A stretch of 64,000 bases of DNA from Rhodococcus sp. HNM0563 (GTDB lineage Bacteria > Actinomycetota > Actinomycetes > Mycobacteriales > Mycobacteriaceae): contig NZ_JAASAF010000004.1 of assembly GCF_012726195.1 (NCBI RefSeq), positions 62,001 through 126,000 on the forward strand, given 5' to 3'. Shown piece after piece: positions 1,753 to 31,754 of this stretch. Under the pieces are notes generated by a model, which was not told the origin of the DNA, ran no database searches, and saw only the letters and a program-made list of their open reading frames with translations. How positions within the stretch are numbered: position 1 is the first letter of the stretch; the number at the start of each line of letters is the position of its first letter. The position numbers and the translations under genes are program-made.

Positions 1753-2478
1753 GTGAATCGAATACAGCAAGTACACGATCGCAGCGGGCCGGTCGTCGGA
1801 ATCATTCCGGCGGCCGGCCGCGGCGTCCGTCTGGGTGAGTCACTACCCAAGGCGTTCGTCGAGCTCGATGGGCGCACCATGCTCGACCGGGCTGTCGAAG
1901 CGATGCTGGGTTCCGGCGCGGTCGACCGCGTCGTGGTGGTGGCGCCGCCCGAGCTCGCCTCGACACCTCCGGCGGAGCTCGTACGCGCGGAATACGCCGA
2001 CCGGGTCACGGTCACCGGCGGTGGTGCGGAACGCGCCGATTCTGTGCGCGCGGGTCTCCGGGCGGCGTCGGACGCGCAGTTCGTGCTCGTGCACGATGCG
2101 GCGCGGGCGCTGACTCCACCGGAGTTGTTCACCCGAGTGGTCGAGGCGCTCCGGGGTGGGCGGCGCGCAGTGATTCCCGTCCTGCCGGTCGCCGACACCA
2201 TCAAGAGCGTCGACTCCGACGGGGTCGTCACCGGCACCCCTGAGCGGGCGACCCTGCGCGCGGTGCAGACACCACAGGGGTTCGAGGCAGACCTGCTCGA
2301 ACGCGCCAATCGCGATACGGGCGACGCAACCGACGATGCCGGGCTGGTGGAACGGCTCGGCGAGTTCGTGCAGACCGTGGCGGGCGACCCGCTCGCCTTC
2401 AAGATCACCACACCGCTGGATCTGGTGCTGGCCCGAGCTCTGCTCGCCGCCGGCGAACGGACACAAGAGGGGAACTGA
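1753..2478 (+). CDS. ispD: 2-C-methyl-D-erythritol 4-phosphate cytidylyltransferase
   Basis: 241 residues. It transfers CMP from CTP to methylerythritol phosphate in the MEP isoprenoid pathway. The nucleotide-binding loop PAAGRGVRLG lies at residues 19-28, followed by LPKAF, with HDAARAL and VQTPQGF farther on, all typical of IspD. The start is a GTG with a poor ribosome binding site, 30 bases after carD, so translation may depend partly on read-through from carD. ispF follows six bases after the stop, forming one unit. Confidence 0.95.
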   Translation: MNRIQQVHDRSGPVVGIIPAAGRGVRLGESLPKAFVELDGRTMLDRAVEAMLGSGAVDRVVVVAPPELASTPPAELVRAEYADRVTVTGGGAERADSVRAGLRAASDAQFVLVHDAARALTPPELFTRVVEALRGGRRAVIPVLPVADTIKSVDSDGVVTGTPERATLRAVQTPQGFEADLLERANRDTGDATDDAGLVERLGEFVQTVAGDPLAFKITTPLDLVLARALLAAGERTQEGN

Positions 2479-2484
2479 GCACAC

Positions 2485-2961
2485 GTGCGTGTCGGAATCG
2501 GAACAGATGTGCACCCGGTCGAACCGGGGCGTTCATGCTGGATGGCAGGTCTGCTGTTCGACGACGCAGATGGTTGTTCGGGGCACTCCGACGGCGACGT
2601 CGCCGCACACGCGTTGTGTGATGCGTTGTTGTCGGCGTCCGGCCTCGGCGACCTGGGTTCGGTGTTCGGGACCGATCGACCCGAGATGTCGGGAGCGTCG
2701 GGGGCCTCGATGCTCACCGAGGTACGGCGGCTGCTGACCGAAGAAGGCTGGACCATCGGCAACGCGGCCGTGCAGGTGATCGGGAACCGCCCGAAGATCG
2801 GGCCGCGACGGGACGAGGCGGTGCGTGTGCTGTCCGATCTGCTCGGCGCACCCGTGTCGGTGTCGGCCACCACCACCGACGGGCTCGGGCTGACCGGCCG
2901 CGGGGAAGGTGTGGCGGCTATCGCCACCGCGCTCGTACTACCTGACGTCGATCAACGGTAA
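2485..2961 (+). CDS. ispF: 2-C-methyl-D-erythritol 2,4-cyclodiphosphate synthase
   Basis: 158 residues, normal family length, GTG start. It cyclises CDP-methylerythritol phosphate in the MEP pathway. The metal-binding Asp8 and His10 are in GTDVHPVE, and a further ligand lies in [16 protein letters not shown]. The C-terminal [13 protein letters not shown] segment is characteristic. It is spaced six bases from ispD and eleven bases from cysS, so all three are probably co-transcribed. Confidence 0.96.
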
Positions 2962-2972
2962 GATGGTCTGTC

Positions 2973-4367
2973 GTGACTTTGCGCCTTTTCGACACCGAGA
3001 CACGAGCCGTGCGGGATTTCGAACCGCTGGTGCCCGGACACGCTTCGGTGTATCTGTGTGGTGCCACTGTTCAGGGTGAGCCGCACATCGGCCACGTGCG
3101 CAGCGGCGTCGCGTTCGACGTTCTGCGACGATGGCTCGCAGCGAAGGGGCTCGACGTCGCGTTTGTGAGAAACGTCACCGATATCGACGACAAGATTCTC
3201 CGCAAGGCGAGCGAGGCGGGCCGCCCCTGGTGGGAATGGAAGACCACCTACGAGCGCGCTTTCACCCGCGCCTACGACGCTCTGGGTGTGTTGCCGCCCT
3301 CCGTGGAGCCCCGCGCGACCGGGCACATCACTCAGATGGTCGAGCTCATGCGTCGACTCATCGACGCGGGTCATGCTTACGCTTCCGACGGCAACGTCTA
3401 CTTCGACGTGATGAGTTTCCCCGAGTACGGCGCGTTGTCGGGGCACAAACTCGACGACGTCCATCAAGGTGAGAGCGCCGGGCAGGGCAAGCGCGACCCT
3501 CGCGACTTCACCCTGTGGAAGGCCGAGAAGGCCGGGGAGCCCTCGTGGCCGACGCCGTGGGGTCGTGGCCGTCCGGGCTGGCATCTCGAATGCTCCGCCA
3601 TGGCGGAGTTCTATCTTGGTTCCTCGTTCGACATCCATTGCGGCGGCATGGATCTGGTGTTTCCGCATCACGAGAACGAGATCGCGCAGGCCCGCGCTGC
3701 AGGTGACGGCTTCGCCCGTTACTGGTTGCACAACGGCTGGGTCACCATGGGCGGCGAGAAGATGTCCAAGTCGCTCGGCAACGTGCTGTCCATCCCCAAC
3801 GTCCTCACCCGCGTGCGGGCCCAGGAACTGCGTTACTACCTCGGCAGCGCCCACTACCGGTCGATGCTCGAATATTCCGACACGGCGCTGGCCGAGGCGG
3901 CCGCGGCCTACCGGGGACTCGAGTCGTTCGTGATCAAGACCCGTGACCGGGCAGGCGACGTTCCCGTCGGAACGTGGACCGACGCGTTCGCCGAAGCGCT
4001 CGACGACGATCTCGGGGTGCCCAAAGCGCTCGCCGAGATCCACGGCCGACGCAGCGAGGGCAACAAGGCGCTCGACAACGGAGACCTGACCGAAGCGGTG
4101 CGCATCGCTTCCCAGATCCGTGCGATGCTTTCTGTCCTCGGCGTCGATCCACTCGATGCACACTGGCAGGAGAGCTCCGGCGACGAGTCGGGTGCGCTCG
4201 CCGCCCTCGATGTGCTGGTGGGAGCAGAACTCGATCGTCGACAGAGCGCCCGTGCCGAGAAGAATTGGGCGGTCGCCGACGAAGTACGTGACCGGCTGAC
4301 AGCGGCGGGGATCGAAGTAACGGATACGCCGAACGGACCCGAGTGGTCTCTGAAAGCAGGGCAGTGA
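2973..4367 (+). CDS. cysS: Cysteinyl-tRNA synthetase
   Basis: 464 residues, class I aminoacyl-tRNA synthetase charging tRNA-Cys. The HIGH signature is at residues 38-41 and the KMSKS signature is in [11 protein letters not shown]. Zinc ligands are Cys29 (YLCG), the Cys in WHLECSAMA and the HCGG/HHENE histidines. The length and C-terminal domain favour CysS over the shorter mycothiol ligase MshC. The GTG start follows ispF closely, and the stop overlaps the rlmB start as TGATG. Confidence 0.95.
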
Positions 4368-26476: not shown

Positions 26477-27313
26477 ATGAGCAGGTTCGAAGGCAAGGTC
26501 GCATTTGTCACCGGAGCCGCGCGTGGTCAGGGACGTTCGCACGCGCTCGCGTTCGCTGAGGCGGGAGCAGATCTCGTCCTGTGCGACCGCTGCGAGGATT
26601 CGCCCGTCGTGCGCTACCCTCTCGCCACCGAGGACGACCTCGCGGAAACGGTGCGTCTGGCCGAAGCCGCCGGTGCGAAGGTCGTCTCGGAGAAGCTCGA
26701 CACCGCGGATCGCGCCGCGATGGACCGGCTTGTCGCACGCGCCCACGACGAGCTCGGCCGTATCGATATCGCGGTCGCCAACGCCGGGGTGTCGACGGCA
26801 GCACCGGTCCAGTCGATGCCGCAGGCCATGTGGGACGAGACGATCTCGTCGAACCTCACGGGTGTGTTCAACACGATCGCGTGCGTTGCCCCGGGGATGA
26901 TCGAGCGCGGATACGGCCGGATCGTGACGATCTCGTCGATGCTCGGGCGCGCCGGAAACACCAACATGGTGGCCTACGGTGCATCGAAGTGGGGTGTCAT
27001 CGGCATGACCAAGAGCGCCGCGCTGGATCTCGCGCAGAACGGGATCACCGTCAACGCCATCGCACCCGGCAATATCTCCACGCCGATGATCCACAACGAC
27101 GCGCTCTACGGCATGCTCCGGCCCGATCTGGAGAACCCCACCGCCGACGATGTCGCTCCGGTCTTCACGTCGCTGCACGCGCAGCCCGTGCCGTGGCTCG
27201 AGCCTGCCGAGATCACGCGCGCGGTGTTGTTCTTCTGCGACGAGGCTGCCGCGCACATCAGCGGAACCGTGCTGCCCATCGATGCGGGGAACGCAGCGCG
27301 CGTCACCGGCTAG
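26477..27313 (+). CDS. Mycofactocin-coupled type SDR oxidoreductase
   Basis: 278 residues. Rossmann motif TGAARGQGRSHA (12-23), catalytic Ser153/154 and YGASK (Tyr167, Lys171). The insert YPLATEDDLAETVRLAEAAGAKVV after the second strand is the mark of the mycofactocin-associated SDR subfamily, which keeps a tightly bound NAD and passes electrons to mycofactocin. The substrate is probably a steroid or other alcohol, inferred from location. Its TAG stop (27311-27313) lies within the 6-bp target duplication of the IS that follows. Confidence 0.85.
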   Translation: MSRFEGKVAFVTGAARGQGRSHALAFAEAGADLVLCDRCEDSPVVRYPLATEDDLAETVRLAEAAGAKVVSEKLDTADRAAMDRLVARAHDELGRIDIAVANAGVSTAAPVQSMPQAMWDETISSNLTGVFNTIACVAPGMIERGYGRIVTISSMLGRAGNTNMVAYGASKWGVIGMTKSAALDLAQNGITVNAIAPGNISTPMIHNDALYGMLRPDLENPTADDVAPVFTSLHAQPVPWLEPAEITRAVLFFCDEAAAHISGTVLPIDAGNAARVTG

Positions 27314-27314
27314 C
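27309..27314. repeat. Target-site duplication, left copy
   Basis: GCTAGC, repeated at 30117-30122, flanks the IS481-type element. The sequence is itself palindromic, so the boundary could also be drawn inside the inverted repeat. The TGT/ACA tips support this reading. Confidence 0.65.
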
Positions 27315-28296
27315 TGTACTGACCGGGGACATTGATCAACCTCGTGAAGGGTGGCTGGTTGGCGCAGGCCGTGTGGGGTCGGTGATGGTTGTAGTGATGC
27401 AGCCATGACTCGAGAACGTCGCGTCGTTCTGCCTCTGAGCGGTAGCAGCGGGCGTAAGCCCACCCGTCGGCCATTGTGCGGTGGAAGCGCTCGACCTTCC
27501 CGTTCGTCTGCGGGCGATATGGGCGCGTGTACCTCGGACGGATCGACAGCGCCTCGCAGGTACCGCGCCACAGATGCGACCGGTAGGCACCGCCGTTGTC
27601 GGACAGTACTCGCTCGATCGTGACCCCACGCTCGGCGAACCAGCCGACAGCTCGTTGCAGGACGCCAACGGCAGTGACAGCAGTCTCGTCGTCGTGGATC
27701 TCGGTGTACGCGACGCGGGAGTGATCGTCGATCACGGTGTGGACGTAGGCGTAGCCCAGCTTGGGTCCGCCGTGCTGATTGCGTGGCTTGTCCGGCGTGG
27801 CGACGCGGTTGCGGTCGCCTTGGCGTCGGCCGACGTAGCGCCAGCCACCGCCGTCGGGGATGTTCCCCAGCTTCTTCACGTCCACGTGCACCAGCGACCC
27901 GGGGTGCGGGTGCTCGTAACGACGGATCGGTTCGCCGGTCGCCCGGTCGACGTGCGACAGCCGATTCAATCGAGCAGTGGTGAGGATGCGGTGGACGGTG
28001 GAGGGCGCGATCCCGAGCCTCGCTGATAGTTGAACTGGCCCTTCCCGCAACCTGATCCGCAGGTTGACGCACCGCTTCGTGACGGGCTTGCTCGTCTTGT
28101 TCGGCGAGCTCTTCGGGCGCGAGGACCGGTCGTGCATGGGCTCGCCGGCGCGGTAGCGGCCGACCCAGCGCTTCACGGTCGGCCACGAGACCTGGAATCG
28201 GGCGGCGACCTCACTGATCGGCCAGCCCTCCTCGACAACGAGTTGGGCAACCTTCAGACGGTGACGCGGTGTGAGGGCAGCGTTGGGATGGGACAT
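27310..28296 (-). CDS. IS481-family DDE transposase
   Basis: 328 residues from ATG 28296. N-terminal HTH domains (HRLKVAQLVVEEGWPISEVAARFQVSWPTVKRW) precede an integrase core with DDE residues in SLVHVDVKKL, RVLSDNGGAY and KVERFHRTM. It appears intact. Its final codons read through the inverted repeat (NVPGQYS), and the TAG stop is formed by the flanking GCTAGC, so the stop depends on the target sequence. It is 43 bases downstream of merR on the same strand and might be co-transcribed with the cargo. Confidence 0.92.
   Translation of the reverse strand: MSHPNAALTPRHRLKVAQLVVEEGWPISEVAARFQVSWPTVKRWVGRYRAGEPMHDRSSRPKSSPNKTSKPVTKRCVNLRIRLREGPVQLSARLGIAPSTVHRILTTARLNRLSHVDRATGEPIRRYEHPHPGSLVHVDVKKLGNIPDGGGWRYVGRRQGDRNRVATPDKPRNQHGGPKLGYAYVHTVIDDHSRVAYTEIHDDETAVTAVGVLQRAVGWFAERGVTIERVLSDNGGAYRSHLWRGTCEALSIRPRYTRPYRPQTNGKVERFHRTMADGWAYARCYRSEAERRDVLESWLHHYNHHRPHTACANQPPFTRLINVPGQYS
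27315..27337. repeat. IS terminal inverted repeat, left
   Basis: A 23-base inverted repeat beginning TGTACTGACCGGGGAC, identical to the reverse complement of 30094-30116. The last codons of the transposase run through it. Confidence 0.9.
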
Positions 28297-28338
28297 GGCA
28301 TCTTTCGGTCCGGGACGGCGCCGCGGCACCCGCCGCTG

Positions 28339-29106
28339 TCAGGCCAGATGCTGCACGTGGATGCGCAGGGCGTTCGCGGCGAACTGCGCGGCCTCTGGGC
28401 TGCCGAAGGTCTGGTGGAAGTCGGGATTGGTTTCGTAGAGGTCGGCCATGCCTCGCACCATTGCGGCGGATCGTTCGACATCGCCGACGTGGGTGGGTGT
28501 CCCGGGGATGTCAGCGAACCAGGCCATGTGGTCGGCAGCGTGCGCTCGAGCAACTGGTGAGCCGGGTGTGTGGCCGGCTTCGTGGATTTCTGCCCACCGT
28601 GTGAGCAGGGCCTGGGCGTTGGCCTGCCAGTCGCGTTGTTGTTCCACGGACTTGGCATGCCACCACCGGTTCGACGCGGCGAAGGCCTCGCGTCCCCACC
28701 GGCGTACGACCTCGGCCTCGTAGCGGTCGTTGAAGCCTTCGAGCATCACATCCATGCGTGGTTCTCGGCCCTCTCGGCGCATCTGCAGGGTGTGTTCGAC
28801 CGCGCTGATGCGCCGGTCCAGGGCCTCGCGGTCCTCGGCGAGCTGTGTCAGGTGGGCCTCGAGCGCTTCGACCTCGGCGGTCGGCGTCTCGGGGGCGTCG
28901 AGCACTGCGGAGATGTCGGCCAGTGGCATACCCGTGTCGCGGAGCAGAAGGATGCGTTGCAGGCGCGCGACCGCGTCGGGACCGTAGTAGCGGTAGCCGT
29001 TGGACCCGACGCGATCGGGCTCGAGCAGCCCGATGCGGTGATAGTGGCGCAGCGTGCGGCCGCTGATGCCTGCGCGTTCAGCGAGCTCGTGCACCGTCCA
29101 TTCCAT
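28339..29106 (-). CDS. MerR-family regulator with TipAS-type C-terminal domain (IS cargo)
   Basis: 255 residues from ATG 29106, with AGGAG seven bases upstream. The MerR HTH is WTVHELAERAGISGRTLRHYHRIGLLEP (3-30) with a wing GYRYYGPDAVARL. A dimerising coiled coil spans about 72-110. A C-terminal helical TipAS-like domain (about 120-255) follows; this fold binds drug-like ligands in TipA-type regulators. It lies downstream of the DUF2268 gene behind a 19-bp-spacer promoter, the hallmark of MerR control. The ligand is unknown. Confidence 0.87.
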   Translation of the reverse strand: MEWTVHELAERAGISGRTLRHYHRIGLLEPDRVGSNGYRYYGPDAVARLQRILLLRDTGMPLADISAVLDAPETPTAEVEALEAHLTQLAEDREALDRRISAVEHTLQMRREGREPRMDVMLEGFNDRYEAEVVRRWGREAFAASNRWWHAKSVEQQRDWQANAQALLTRWAEIHEAGHTPGSPVARAHAADHMAWFADIPGTPTHVGDVERSAAMVRGMADLYETNPDFHQTFGSPEAAQFAANALRIHVQHLA

Positions 29107-29135
29107 CACCGGGCTCCTGTCGTTCGACGTGCTGC

Positions 29136-30044
29136 TCAGTGTGCCGGGTCTGTGGTCAGGCCCAGCCGTGGCAGCGCAATGCGCAGGATCTCGGACGCGG
29201 GAGTGCGGACGTTTTGGGCGGCCGTGGTGCCCGTGGCGTCGAGGTAGGCGCGGACAAGCCGAGCACCGGCTGCATAACCGGCCCCGGTCGGCAAGCCGAC
29301 GGGCTCGGCACCGAACAGTTGTGCGCTGGAGTCGCCCAGCACCCAGGCGGCGAAGTCTGCCATTCCTGTGACGCCCAGGCCGCTGGCAACCTTCGCCAAG
29401 ACTTGGTCGTCGGAGTGGGTTTCATCGCGCACGAAGTGGGTGTAGCCGGCGTCGCCATACAACTCGGACGCGAAAACGTCGGCGAGCCCTTCGGACACAA
29501 CGTGCTCGCCAACCATCACCGTCTGTGGGTCCCACACGATCCCGCCGGGTGAATAGCGCACGTTGTGGTGCAGTTCGTGGACCGCGATCGCCTCGAGGCG
29601 ATCGAGAACGCGCGAGGTGGGCCAGACGGTGATGGCGATGTAGCCGCTGATGCCGCCGAACCCGGACATCCCTTGCACCTCGTCGACGAAGTGCTGGCTG
29701 GTCGGATCTCCCAGGACGAGCAGCACGTTCAGGTCGGGGATGGTCACACCCGGATCGGCAGACGTCAACGCTGCGACCCCGTCCTCGAGGGCCTTCTCGA
29801 TGCGGGTCCACGCATCGGCCGCGACAAGGGATTCCAGACCTTCGCGGACCTGCTCGATCGCGGAGTCCGGACGGAAGCCGAAGTTCTGCTGGTGCACGGT
29901 CGCCATGTCCACGCCGCCGGGGATGAAGTGGTACATCCCGGCCATCGGAGCCCACATGTCACGGATGAGGTCGGCGCGATCCTTCGCGTCCGCCGTCAGG
30001 ACTCGGTTCATGCCCGAGGCACTGTCAATCACTGAAATGGTCAT
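29136..30044 (-). CDS. DUF2268-type putative zinc metallopeptidase (IS cargo)
   Basis: 302 residues. AVHELHHN contains HExxH (His156, Glu157, His160), and Glu185 in SEGLADVF is positioned as a third zinc ligand, the gluzincin-like layout of DUF2268 (PF10026). There is no signal peptide or membrane segment, so it is probably cytoplasmic. The substrate is unknown. It starts only eight bases from the -10 element, suggesting a leaderless transcript. It is followed 29 bases later by merR, so the two look like a regulator-effector pair carried by the IS. Confidence 0.78.
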   Translation of the reverse strand: MTISVIDSASGMNRVLTADAKDRADLIRDMWAPMAGMYHFIPGGVDMATVHQQNFGFRPDSAIEQVREGLESLVAADAWTRIEKALEDGVAALTSADPGVTIPDLNVLLVLGDPTSQHFVDEVQGMSGFGGISGYIAITVWPTSRVLDRLEAIAVHELHHNVRYSPGGIVWDPQTVMVGEHVVSEGLADVFASELYGDAGYTHFVRDETHSDDQVLAKVASGLGVTGMADFAAWVLGDSSAQLFGAEPVGLPTGAGYAAGARLVRAYLDATGTTAAQNVRTPASEILRIALPRLGLTTDPAH

Positions 30045-30052
30045 GACAAGCG

Positions 30053-30083
30053 ACCGTAAACATTGACGCTACGACAAGGTCAA
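30053..30083 (-). promoter_or_regulatory. MerR-type promoter inside the IS right end
   Basis: On the minus strand, -35 TTGACC (30083-30078) and -10 TACGGT (30058-30053) are separated by 19 bases, the over-long spacer activated by MerR proteins. An inverted repeat TTGAC...GTCAA fills the spacer. The DUF2268 ATG is eight bases past the -10, implying little or no leader. Confidence 0.6.
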
Positions 30084-30093
30084 CCGTTTCCTC

Positions 30094-30116
30094 GATCAAT
30101 GTCCCCGGTCAGTACA
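30094..30116. repeat. IS terminal inverted repeat, right
   Basis: Reverse complement of 27315-27337 over all 23 bases, ending ...CAGTACA. The last six codons of the neighbouring MFS gene now come from here and the adjacent IS bases. Confidence 0.9.
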
Positions 30117-31754
30117 GCTAGCGCCTTCGAAGCCCGGTCCGCTCGGGTCGGTACCGACGGCACGCGACGGTAGTCGACCTGTCCCGAACAGTGCGGCGAC
30201 TGCGAGCAGAGCGGTCACACCGAACGCCACTTGCAAGGCTTTGAGTCGCGCATCGCTGTTGACGGCGACGATGGCGTCGCGCGTCGGTGCGTCCAGGCCC
30301 GCCGAGACCAGGGCGCCGTCGAGTTCGGTATTCGACAGGAATGGCACGCCCTGTGCGATCTGGGTCCCTGCCTGCTGCTGGACGGCTGCCGGGATATCCG
30401 GGTTGTCTTCGATACCTGCGCTCACCGACGTGGAGAGGGTGGCGATCAGGATCGAGCCGATCAGCGCTGTACCGAGCGAAGCGCCGAGGTTGGTGGCGGT
30501 GTTCTGCACGCCGCCGACCTCGGCGCTCTTCGACTCCGGCACCGCCGACACGGTGATCGCTCCCAACTGGGACGACAACGCGCCGAGGCCTGCCCCCAGG
30601 AACAGCATCGGGATCGCCACCACGGCGGCGGTGGCTCCGGGATCCATTCCCGCGGTGAGCACGGCGATCCCGACGATCATCGAGGCGAGCCCCAGTCGCA
30701 CAACCCGCCTGGGGTTCGCGTGCGGCCAGAGTTTCGGGATACCCGCCGCGGCGAGCACGAGTGCAAGCGAGAGCGGCAGGATCCGCACACCCGTCTCGAG
30801 TGCGCTCAACTCCAGCACCACGGACAGGAACAGCGGCACCGAGAAGAACACACCCGCCTGGACTGCGAACTGGGCGAAGAACATCGTCAGTCCACCGGTG
30901 AGTTGACGACTTTCGAACAATGCCGGATCGATGAGTGGATCGCGACCCGTCGCGACCAGCGCGTGCTGCCGCCGCATGAAGGCGTAGAGGACCAGCAACC
31001 CGACGAGGATCAGCCAGATCACGGGCGACATACCGATGACCTCCGGACCGCCGGATGTGGCGATCACCCAGCCCCATTCGCTCGACCGCAGCACGCCGTA
31101 CACGATCATCGCCAGCCCCACCACCGACATGAGCGCGCTGGGCACGTCGATCGACATCGGCGCCGCCGGAACGTCCCGCACCCGCCGTAGTACGAGCAGG
31201 ATCAGCGCCACCACGACGACCTCGCCGAAGAAGACGTAGCGCCACGACGCGAACGTCGTCACCGCCCCACCGAGTAGCGGGCCGACGGCGACCGCCATTG
31301 CACCGGCAGCTGCAACGAGCCCGTACGCCGCTGCGCGCCGCTCGGGTGGGAAGTTCGCGGCGACGAGGGAGACGATCGCAGGCATGATCAGTGCCGCACC
31401 GATGCCTTCGAGGAGCGACCAGCCCAGCAGAAGGATCGGCAAGTTCGGAGCACACCCGGTGACGAGCGAGCCGACCGCGTAGACCACGAGTCCGACCCCG
31501 AAGGCGCGGCGCCGTCCGAGCGCGGTACCGACTTTGCCGCCCGTGATCATCAGAGATGCCATCACCAGCGTGTACAGCGTGATCGCGGTCTGGATTCCGG
31601 TGATCGTCGTGTCGAGATCCTGCGCGACGGTCGCCATCGACACGTTCATCACCGAGCTGTCGAGCGTCATCAGGAATTGGCCCGATGCCAGCACTGCCAG
31701 GACGAGTGCGGAACCCGATCGCACTTCCGGATCTGATCTACGACTCTTGCTCAT
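30096..31754 (-). CDS. MFS drug-efflux transporter (DHA2/14-TM family)
   Basis: 552 residues from ATG 31754. The opening FLMTLDSSVMNVSMATVAQDL is the DHA2 family motif for proton-coupled multidrug exporters; about 14 hydrophobic segments are seen. The IS insertion at its 3' end replaced the natural last residue: the current C-terminus GASCTDRGH uses IS codons, whereas the uninterrupted gene would end GASR. This should not affect function. It is divergent from the drrA-like ABC gene. Substrate unknown. Confidence 0.88.
   Translation of the reverse strand: MSKSRRSDPEVRSGSALVLAVLASGQFLMTLDSSVMNVSMATVAQDLDTTITGIQTAITLYTLVMASLMITGGKVGTALGRRRAFGVGLVVYAVGSLVTGCAPNLPILLLGWSLLEGIGAALIMPAIVSLVAANFPPERRAAAYGLVAAAGAMAVAVGPLLGGAVTTFASWRYVFFGEVVVVALILLVLRRVRDVPAAPMSIDVPSALMSVVGLAMIVYGVLRSSEWGWVIATSGGPEVIGMSPVIWLILVGLLVLYAFMRRQHALVATGRDPLIDPALFESRQLTGGLTMFFAQFAVQAGVFFSVPLFLSVVLELSALETGVRILPLSLALVLAAAGIPKLWPHANPRRVVRLGLASMIVGIAVLTAGMDPGATAAVVAIPMLFLGAGLGALSSQLGAITVSAVPESKSAEVGGVQNTATNLGASLGTALIGSILIATLSTSVSAGIEDNPDIPAAVQQQAGTQIAQGVPFLSNTELDGALVSAGLDAPTRDAIVAVNSDARLKALQVAFGVTALLAVAALFGTGRLPSRAVGTDPSGPGFEGASCTDRGH
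30117..30122. repeat. Target-site duplication, right copy
   Basis: GCTAGC, matching 27309-27314. Joining the two flanks through one copy restores normal ends for both neighbouring genes. Confidence 0.65.

Follow-up and report, generated by a model that had tools for sequence, protein, structure and literature searches.

An IS481-family transposon with a MerR-DUF2268 operon in Rhodococcus sp. HNM0563 and the cargo of its relatives

The element, its genes and its boundaries

We analyzed a stretch of 64,000 nt from Rhodococcus sp. HNM0563 (contig NZ_JAASAF010000004.1, positions 62,001 to 126,000), referred to below as the window. Positions 27315–30116 of the window are occupied by an intact 2,802-bp IS481-family transposon with three genes, all on the minus strand and read in the order DUF2268 putative zinc metallopeptidase, MerR-family regulator of TipAS type, transposase (Table 1). 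An earlier note on this DNA had recognized these parts, and its list holds. The transposase scores 346 bits on NF033577 (cut-off 224), the MerR protein 67.9 bits on PF13411 and 65.9 bits on PF07739 (both over cut-off), and the DUF2268 protein, with its HELHH motif, 108.3 bits on PF10026. The 23-bp terminal inverted repeats with TGT/ACA tips match at 23 of 23 positions, and the length given there, about 2.5 times that of a standard IS481 insertion sequence (IS), agrees with the 1,092–1,216 bp of the cargo-free relatives in this analysis.

Absent from the earlier note is the target-site duplication GCTAGC, of the NCTAGN type of the IS481 family, on both sides of the element; 6-bp duplications are reported as typical of most IS481 elements (PMC10045372). 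Because GCTAGC is itself palindromic, automated repeat detection gives 29-bp perfect arms. The left copy provides the TAG stops of both the SDR-family host gene (27311–27313) and the minus-strand transposase (27310–27312), and the SDR gene is left whole. On the other side, a neighbouring minus-strand MFS frame now terminates in the right inverted repeat (30096–30122), with a C-terminus a few residues longer. A search for further copies in the host genome found one full copy only, and megablast (at its sensitivity) gave 0 matches to the element in 50,697 phage records.

Table 1. Features of the transposon and its insertion site (positions in the window)
Feature	Positions	Strand	Details
Host SDR-family gene	26477–27313	+	PF00106; insertion at stop codon
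Target-site duplication, left copy	27309–27314	.	GCTAGC (NCTAGN); single GCTAGC at the empty site of locus L115
IS481-family transposase	27310–28296	−	328 aa from ATG at 28296; NCBIfam NF033577
Left terminal inverted repeat, transposase end	27315–27337	+	23 bp
Gap between MerR stop and transposase ATG	28297–28338	−	42 nt; no terminator-like structure, no hairpin locking the ribosome site
MerR-family regulator with TipAS effector domain	28339–29109	−	256 aa; PF13411, PF07739
DUF2268 putative zinc metallopeptidase	29136–30044	−	302 aa; HExxH 156–160, Glu185
MerR-type promoter	30053–30083	−	TTGACC, 19-bp spacer, TACGGT; upstream of DUF2268
Right terminal inverted repeat, cargo end	30094–30116	−	23 bp
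Target-site duplication, right copy	30117–30122	.	GCTAGC

The transposase frame is open, free of internal stops, and contains HVDVKK, LSDNGG and GKVERFHR, which we take to be the motifs of the DDE triad. For the MerR protein the best solved-structure match by sequence is SkgA (7cla, E 2.6e-21). No solved relative of the DUF2268 protein was found by sequence at E 1; its predicted structure may be gluzincin-like, and residues H156, E157, H160 and E185 are invariant across 65 sequences, with identity down to 27%. Values of dN/dS were 0.09–0.44 in all 22 gene pairs computed, and all three genes look to be under constraint. A role in defence was considered and dropped: PADLOC returned nothing for DUF2268, and MerR residues 1–55 matched mad1 at only 52.5 bits, which looks like a generic DNA-binding match.

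Sequence comparison confirmed the earlier claim that the element is one mobile unit with passenger genes, as in the transporter IS category (defined in PMC9330008). That it moves as one piece follows from its identical ends, the NCTAGN duplications, copies elsewhere and an empty site in a congener. The SDR flank was found in 17 of 18 genomes of the genus (own included). In congener G001 (L115) the two flanks adjoin without any insert, share one GCTAGC and match at 90% identity over 596 bp. This is the sole congener in which the adjoining flanks could be compared, and the MerR-DUF2268 pair was not seen there; for the other matching congeners the right flank was not seen in the stretch fetched, and they are neutral on the empty site. 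Copies with the same ends occur at other sites in Prauserella rugosa (L033; 2,802 bp, 97.9% identical, duplication TCTAGG), Dietzia cercidiphylli (L034; 2,802 bp, 94.3%, GCTAGC) and Dietzia sp. NCCP-2495 (L040; 2,802 bp, 94.3%, GCTAGA). The multiple copies that the earlier note proposed to look for thus exist in these genera, though not in the host genome itself. Since silent divergence between these three copies and that of the window is 0.03–0.24, we take them to reflect recent transfer. Two further units came from the second set of elements described below: L194 (2,802 bp, flanking hexamers mismatched at two of six positions) and L230 (2,801 bp, GCTAGC duplication). Diverged versions of the gene trio were found in L145 (full trio, duplication TCTAGC at six of six positions), in L047 (transposase broken) and in L215 (transposase broken, duplication at five of six positions).

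Related elements, their cargo and the transposase tree

Relatives of the element were collected in two sets. The first contains 26 cargo elements with both ends (21 plus five plasmid elements), all longer than 1.8 kb and 21 of them with identical 6-bp duplications. Five of the first-set elements (the window element, L033, L034, L040 and L047) were reached via cargo or the whole unit and are not a test of a carriage rule; the others were found by transposase matches. As a positive control, end-finding applied to ISArsp12 returned 2,615 bp and CCTAGA, equal to the published values. The second set, fetched later by transposase DNA alone, consists of 40 stretches: all listed matches minus places already seen and a contig-edge fragment (G1214:C94). 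Both ends were identified in 37 of these, 26 with cargo (1.9–4.1 kb; identical duplications in 21) and 11 bare (1.10–1.12 kb; identical duplications in nine). L202 and L210 have no recognisable left end, their right end lying ∼1.6 kb upstream of the transposase, and L233 is truncated by the contig end. None of the second-set elements has an exact copy in the first-set loci compared; the check for overlap between the genomes of the two sets extended to this comparison.

Across both sets we counted 24 kinds of cargo. Besides TipAS-MerR with DUF2268, regulators are combined with other genes as follows: WYL with VOC, RidA or an alpha/beta-hydrolase; HTH_11 with MFS and a UvrA-like gene, or with SnoaL and DUF5655; an IclR/MarR-like HTH with MFS; XRE-cupin with DUF2938; AraC with VOC; TetR with DoxX, an ABC exporter, a hydrolase, cupin plus DUF4865, or EamA; a MazE/AbrB-type regulator with an ABC exporter; HxlR with a 148-aa protein; MarR with VOC or a polyketide-cyclase-like protein; Rrf2 with an NAD(P)H-binding gene; ArsR with a permease; LysR with EamA; and PadR with an unassigned protein. 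A regulator is present in 26 of 26 first-set elements and 25 of 26 second-set elements, the exception being L198 (ABC plus MFS); the corresponding counts for an effector are 26 of 26 and 25 of 26 (L201 carries MerR alone). The first-set regulator calls include an AraC remnant (L139), a small MazE-type protein (L094) and two made by similarity search (L090 and L047). L095 and L218 carry effectors without a Pfam match, and second-set gene names derive partly from similarity to first-set genes.

Several loci showed further arrangements of cargo. In L088 two cargo elements stand back to back (380–2923 and 2930–4205), separated by roughly one CTAG site. The first has WYL, VOC and transposase genes; of the second, which is of the DUF2268-MerR kind, only the start is present before the contig ends. 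L145 and L146, both from genome G607, have different cargo, yet their right ends are identical over the first 30 bp, as would result from an exchange of cargo immediately inward of that end. An AbiV-type HEPN gene (5445–6185 of L093) lies within the element, beyond the damaged transposase and near the left end. In L234 (Corynebacterium striatum pTP10, 1826–3990) the efflux gene cmx is immediately upstream of, and touches, the transposase gene of IS5564 on the same strand; this transposase is 65% identical to that of the window, and the far end of the cmx-IS5564 element was not found with the end pattern used.

In a first transposase tree (22 cargo and 12 bare rows) all cargo rows fell on one side of a branch with support 96/93. 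This tree omits L093 and L057c, which lack a single match spanning 270 residues, as well as L047 and L103 (broken or partial transposase). A careful 71-row tree also omits L106, L017 and L018 (long branches), and L019, whose transposase is in three pieces, is in no tree. The single origin of the cargo trait suggested by the first tree may still apply but was not recovered once the second set was added, chiefly because L220, a cargo element (Rrf2 plus NAD(P)H-binding gene), is placed among bare ones, although weakly (85/34 with L140). The trait changes twice in a quick 74-row tree and three times in the careful tree, for which one change was seen in only 2% of bootstrap trees. Since a single origin was not shown with both sets, we restrict the claim to two subclades. 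One consists wholly of cargo elements (22 of 22 with both ends; 100/100); the other, which includes the window element, has cargo in 25 of 25 elements with both ends and contains two more rows with unknown or cut ends (100/99). A third group holds four bare elements and L220. In these two well-supported subclades, then, cargo is present in every two-ended element, and it nearly always combines a regulator with an effector. A threshold of transposase identity was rejected as a rule for cargo: second-set values are 75.1–98.2% for cargo elements and 69.3–73.8% for bare ones, yet a bare element of the first set, L140, reaches 75.4%.

DUF2268-MerR cargo occurs in both subclades (the window element in one, L145 and L215 in the other), and Rrf2-NAD(P) cargo on the different backbones of L152 and L220. 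It follows that cargo was either acquired repeatedly or swapped.

The DUF2268-MerR pair exists outside the element as well. Among 24 loci in named genomes recovered by DUF2268 similarity, seven (L042, L043, L046, L048, L049, L053 and L056) have the pair with homology that stops before the transposon ends; the remaining ones are either elements (complete, partial or decayed) or single genes. Non-element pairs share the MerR-type promoter and its 19-bp spacer. Two plasmids have the pair alone, those of Streptomyces sp. KN37 (L156) and of Clavibacter phaseoli (L155, genes convergent). In a DUF2268 tree of 30 rows (17 element-borne, 13 others) three changes are needed, and well-supported branches force at least two. 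The operon was probably captured from non-mobile copies in other Actinobacteria.

Two plasmid loci carry a DUF2268 gene in other surroundings. On Corynebacterium marinum plasmid pCmarinum2 (L154, 3501–4400) the gene lies near erm(51) and adjoins a recombinase gene, a Mu-transposase-type gene and an AAA ATPase gene; it may thus travel on a transposon of a different type. The gene retains its MerR-type promoter, though the stretch has no annotated MerR gene. On Staphylococcus epidermidis plasmid pSE11H-1 (L157, 2485–4951) the gene has an IS6 transposase on either side, and msr(A) is close by.

Regulatory signals and possible roles of the operon

MerR-family promoters are described as marked by 19–20-bp spacers (PMC9909328). 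The promoter of the window element begins 10 bp inward of the right inverted repeat, its −10 box ends 8 nt upstream of the DUF2268 ATG, and its 19-bp spacer contains the dyad TTGnCG-N3-CGnCAA with five of six pairs. TTGACC and TA-N3-T at 19-bp spacing were present in 28 of 30 homologous upstream regions, while 17 of 6,000 shuffled controls matched the promoter score. The two failures, L021 and L028, had been scanned on the wrong strand; on the correct strand the arrangement is found in L021 and not in L028. The dyad has at least five of six pairs in 23 of the 30 regions, and promoter and operator are kept down to 49% protein identity. In 27 of the 28 regions with the arrangement the −10 box ends 7–8 nt before the ATG (23 nt in L051); given so short a distance, the operon mRNA is probably leaderless.

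The 100 bp that precede the transposase gene of cargo-free elements fold into a long stem whose 3′ arm contains the transposase ribosome site. Such stems in mobile elements are known to stop outside transcripts from yielding transposase. The longest exact complementary arm reached at least 8 nt (9–16) in all 20 bare elements tested (9 + 11) and in five of 52 cargo elements (L139, L211, L213, L215 and L216); both this measure and the 8-nt cut were picked after the folding results for the two sets had been seen. Paired probability of the ribosome site was rejected as a discriminator, being clear in the first set (bare 0.78–0.97, cargo 0.25–0.75) and overlapping in the second (bare 0.58–0.93, cargo 0.33–0.84). 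As judged from these leaders, cargo usually seems to replace the locking leader of bare relatives. In the window element the longest arm is shorter than 8 nt, i.e. the ribosome site is not locked; the 42-nt gap has fold z = 0.66 and 0.9 in two computations, and no terminator-like site was found across 27300–30130. In eight other elements (L149, L150, L143, L144, L091, L146, L152 and L153) the cargo is set apart from the transposase by a strong isolated hairpin, with fold z from −3.2 to −5.5, and read-through is therefore not general.

Taken as a whole, the data are likely to be best explained by an autonomous IS481 unit transposon with a self-regulated two-gene response operon. Our best guess at its function is a self-regulated mobile xenobiotic-response module; the domain families are what suggests a drug-response role. 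In the literature, TipA-class regulators are presented as minimal systems of drug resistance that regulate themselves (PMC7762955). By this scheme the TipAS-MerR protein would bind a foreign, probably antibiotic-like ligand and realign the 19-bp-spacer promoter, so that the presence of the ligand would switch on synthesis of peptidase and regulator. The peptidase, presumably cytosolic and of the gluzincin (thermolysin/M1) type, might cleave a peptide-like compound or a stress-relevant host peptide. With the short leader that hides the transposase ribosome site in bare relatives replaced by cargo, the transposase would in turn be reachable by read-through from the operon.

Carried further, this becomes a sensor-driven transposon. 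Ligand-bound TipAS-MerR would start one leaderless transcript through peptidase, regulator and lock-free transposase, a drug would induce both the response and its spread, and the whole group would be carriers swapping regulator-effector pairs between backbones. We consider this extended version unlikely. Somewhat favoured is plain passenger carriage, in which the operon is selected for host benefit and the transposase is expressed independently (e.g. from a circle-junction promoter), with no link between sensing and moving. It agrees with the hairpins that separate cargo from transposase in the eight elements named above, with L035 and L036, where the cargo is intact and most of the transposase lost, and with cargo so widely varied that no single sensor can be required for transposition; yet it leaves aside that the window element and its nearest kin have neither hairpin nor terminator-like site, with only 42 nt between MerR and transposase genes, and that the ribosome-site lock of bare relatives is gone from the window element.

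The peptidase might instead be a regulated protease of a stress or proteostasis response, not a detoxifying one, with an internal or general signal as the TipAS ligand. DUF2268 is indeed widespread outside mobile elements in Bacillota and Actinobacteria (658 and 392 proteins, E < 0.001), often without an annotated TipAS gene as neighbour (L157, L158). Against this stand the deep conservation of the MerR-type operator promoter noted above and, as an association only, the proximity of two plasmid DUF2268 genes to the macrolide-resistance genes erm(51) and msr(A); we hold this alternative to be possible, with the balance tilted against it. As for a chance assembly, in which an IS481 element landed beside a resident MerR-DUF2268 pair and a stray second end, nothing was found in its favour, though the pair is present at other loci that lack the element. 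The same boundaries with 6-bp duplications in other genera, the empty site without the pair in L115 and the diverged trio of L145 with its own duplication leave it a vanishingly small probability, and the empty site together with the matching duplications refutes it.

The two subclades in which every two-ended element carries cargo, nearly always a ligand-sensing regulator and its effector, would give small response modules a general way of passing between Actinobacteria. The element offers a compact handle on the widespread DUF2268 peptidase family, here tied to a class of antibiotic-sensing regulators, and loss of the translational lock makes it testable whether a compound that induces the cargo also induces movement.

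Comparison with known systems

The element belongs to a known kind, IS481 elements with passengers. The earlier note was right about a single mobile unit; its further statements, that IS481 elements normally carry only a transposase and that such a module was not, to its knowledge, described, are not supported, since ISArsp12 (PMC6305408) and TnRErm46 (PMC6794481), as described in the published accounts, have regulator and effector passengers. The account of TnRErm46 also states that IS481 members may carry cargo, e.g. resistance genes and regulators (PMC6794481). We found no statement of a general regulator-plus-effector cargo pattern of IS481 elements in the open-licence PMC literature.

ISArsp12 of plasmid pA2H1 (Arthrobacter sp. 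ANT_H2) is reported as 2,615 bp long with an ArsR regulator and a permease (PMC6305408). Its transposase, 78.7% identical to that of the window element, belongs to the sister subclade, and in both elements regulator and effector are upstream of the transposase. The ends of ISArsp12 are TGTACTGACCGGACACGTTG, with the 6-bp direct repeat CCTAGA; the difference is in the cargo, ArsR plus permease instead of TipAS-MerR plus DUF2268. TnRErm46 of Rhodococcus equi likewise has the IS481 transposase as last gene, NCTAGN duplications and a target-supplied TAG stop, with a TetR regulator among its passengers. Unlike the window element, it is described as 6.9 kb long with seven open reading frames and the end sequence TGTTGCGGGTCATGACGTTG, and is reported to be actively moving (PMC6794481).

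The regulator resembles the TipA-class MerR proteins TipAL, SkgA, Mta and AlbA in its MerR DNA-binding and TipAS domains and its 19-bp-spacer promoter, and differs from them in that its gene stands behind a DUF2268 peptidase gene within a transposon. The peptidase is similar to the DUF2268/YjaZ-type predicted zinc proteases (PF10026), with the invariant HExxH plus Glu and a predicted model that may be gluzincin-like. What is new is a rule of carriage that holds in two subclades, a translational lock that has been lost and cargo that joins a sensor to a peptidase.

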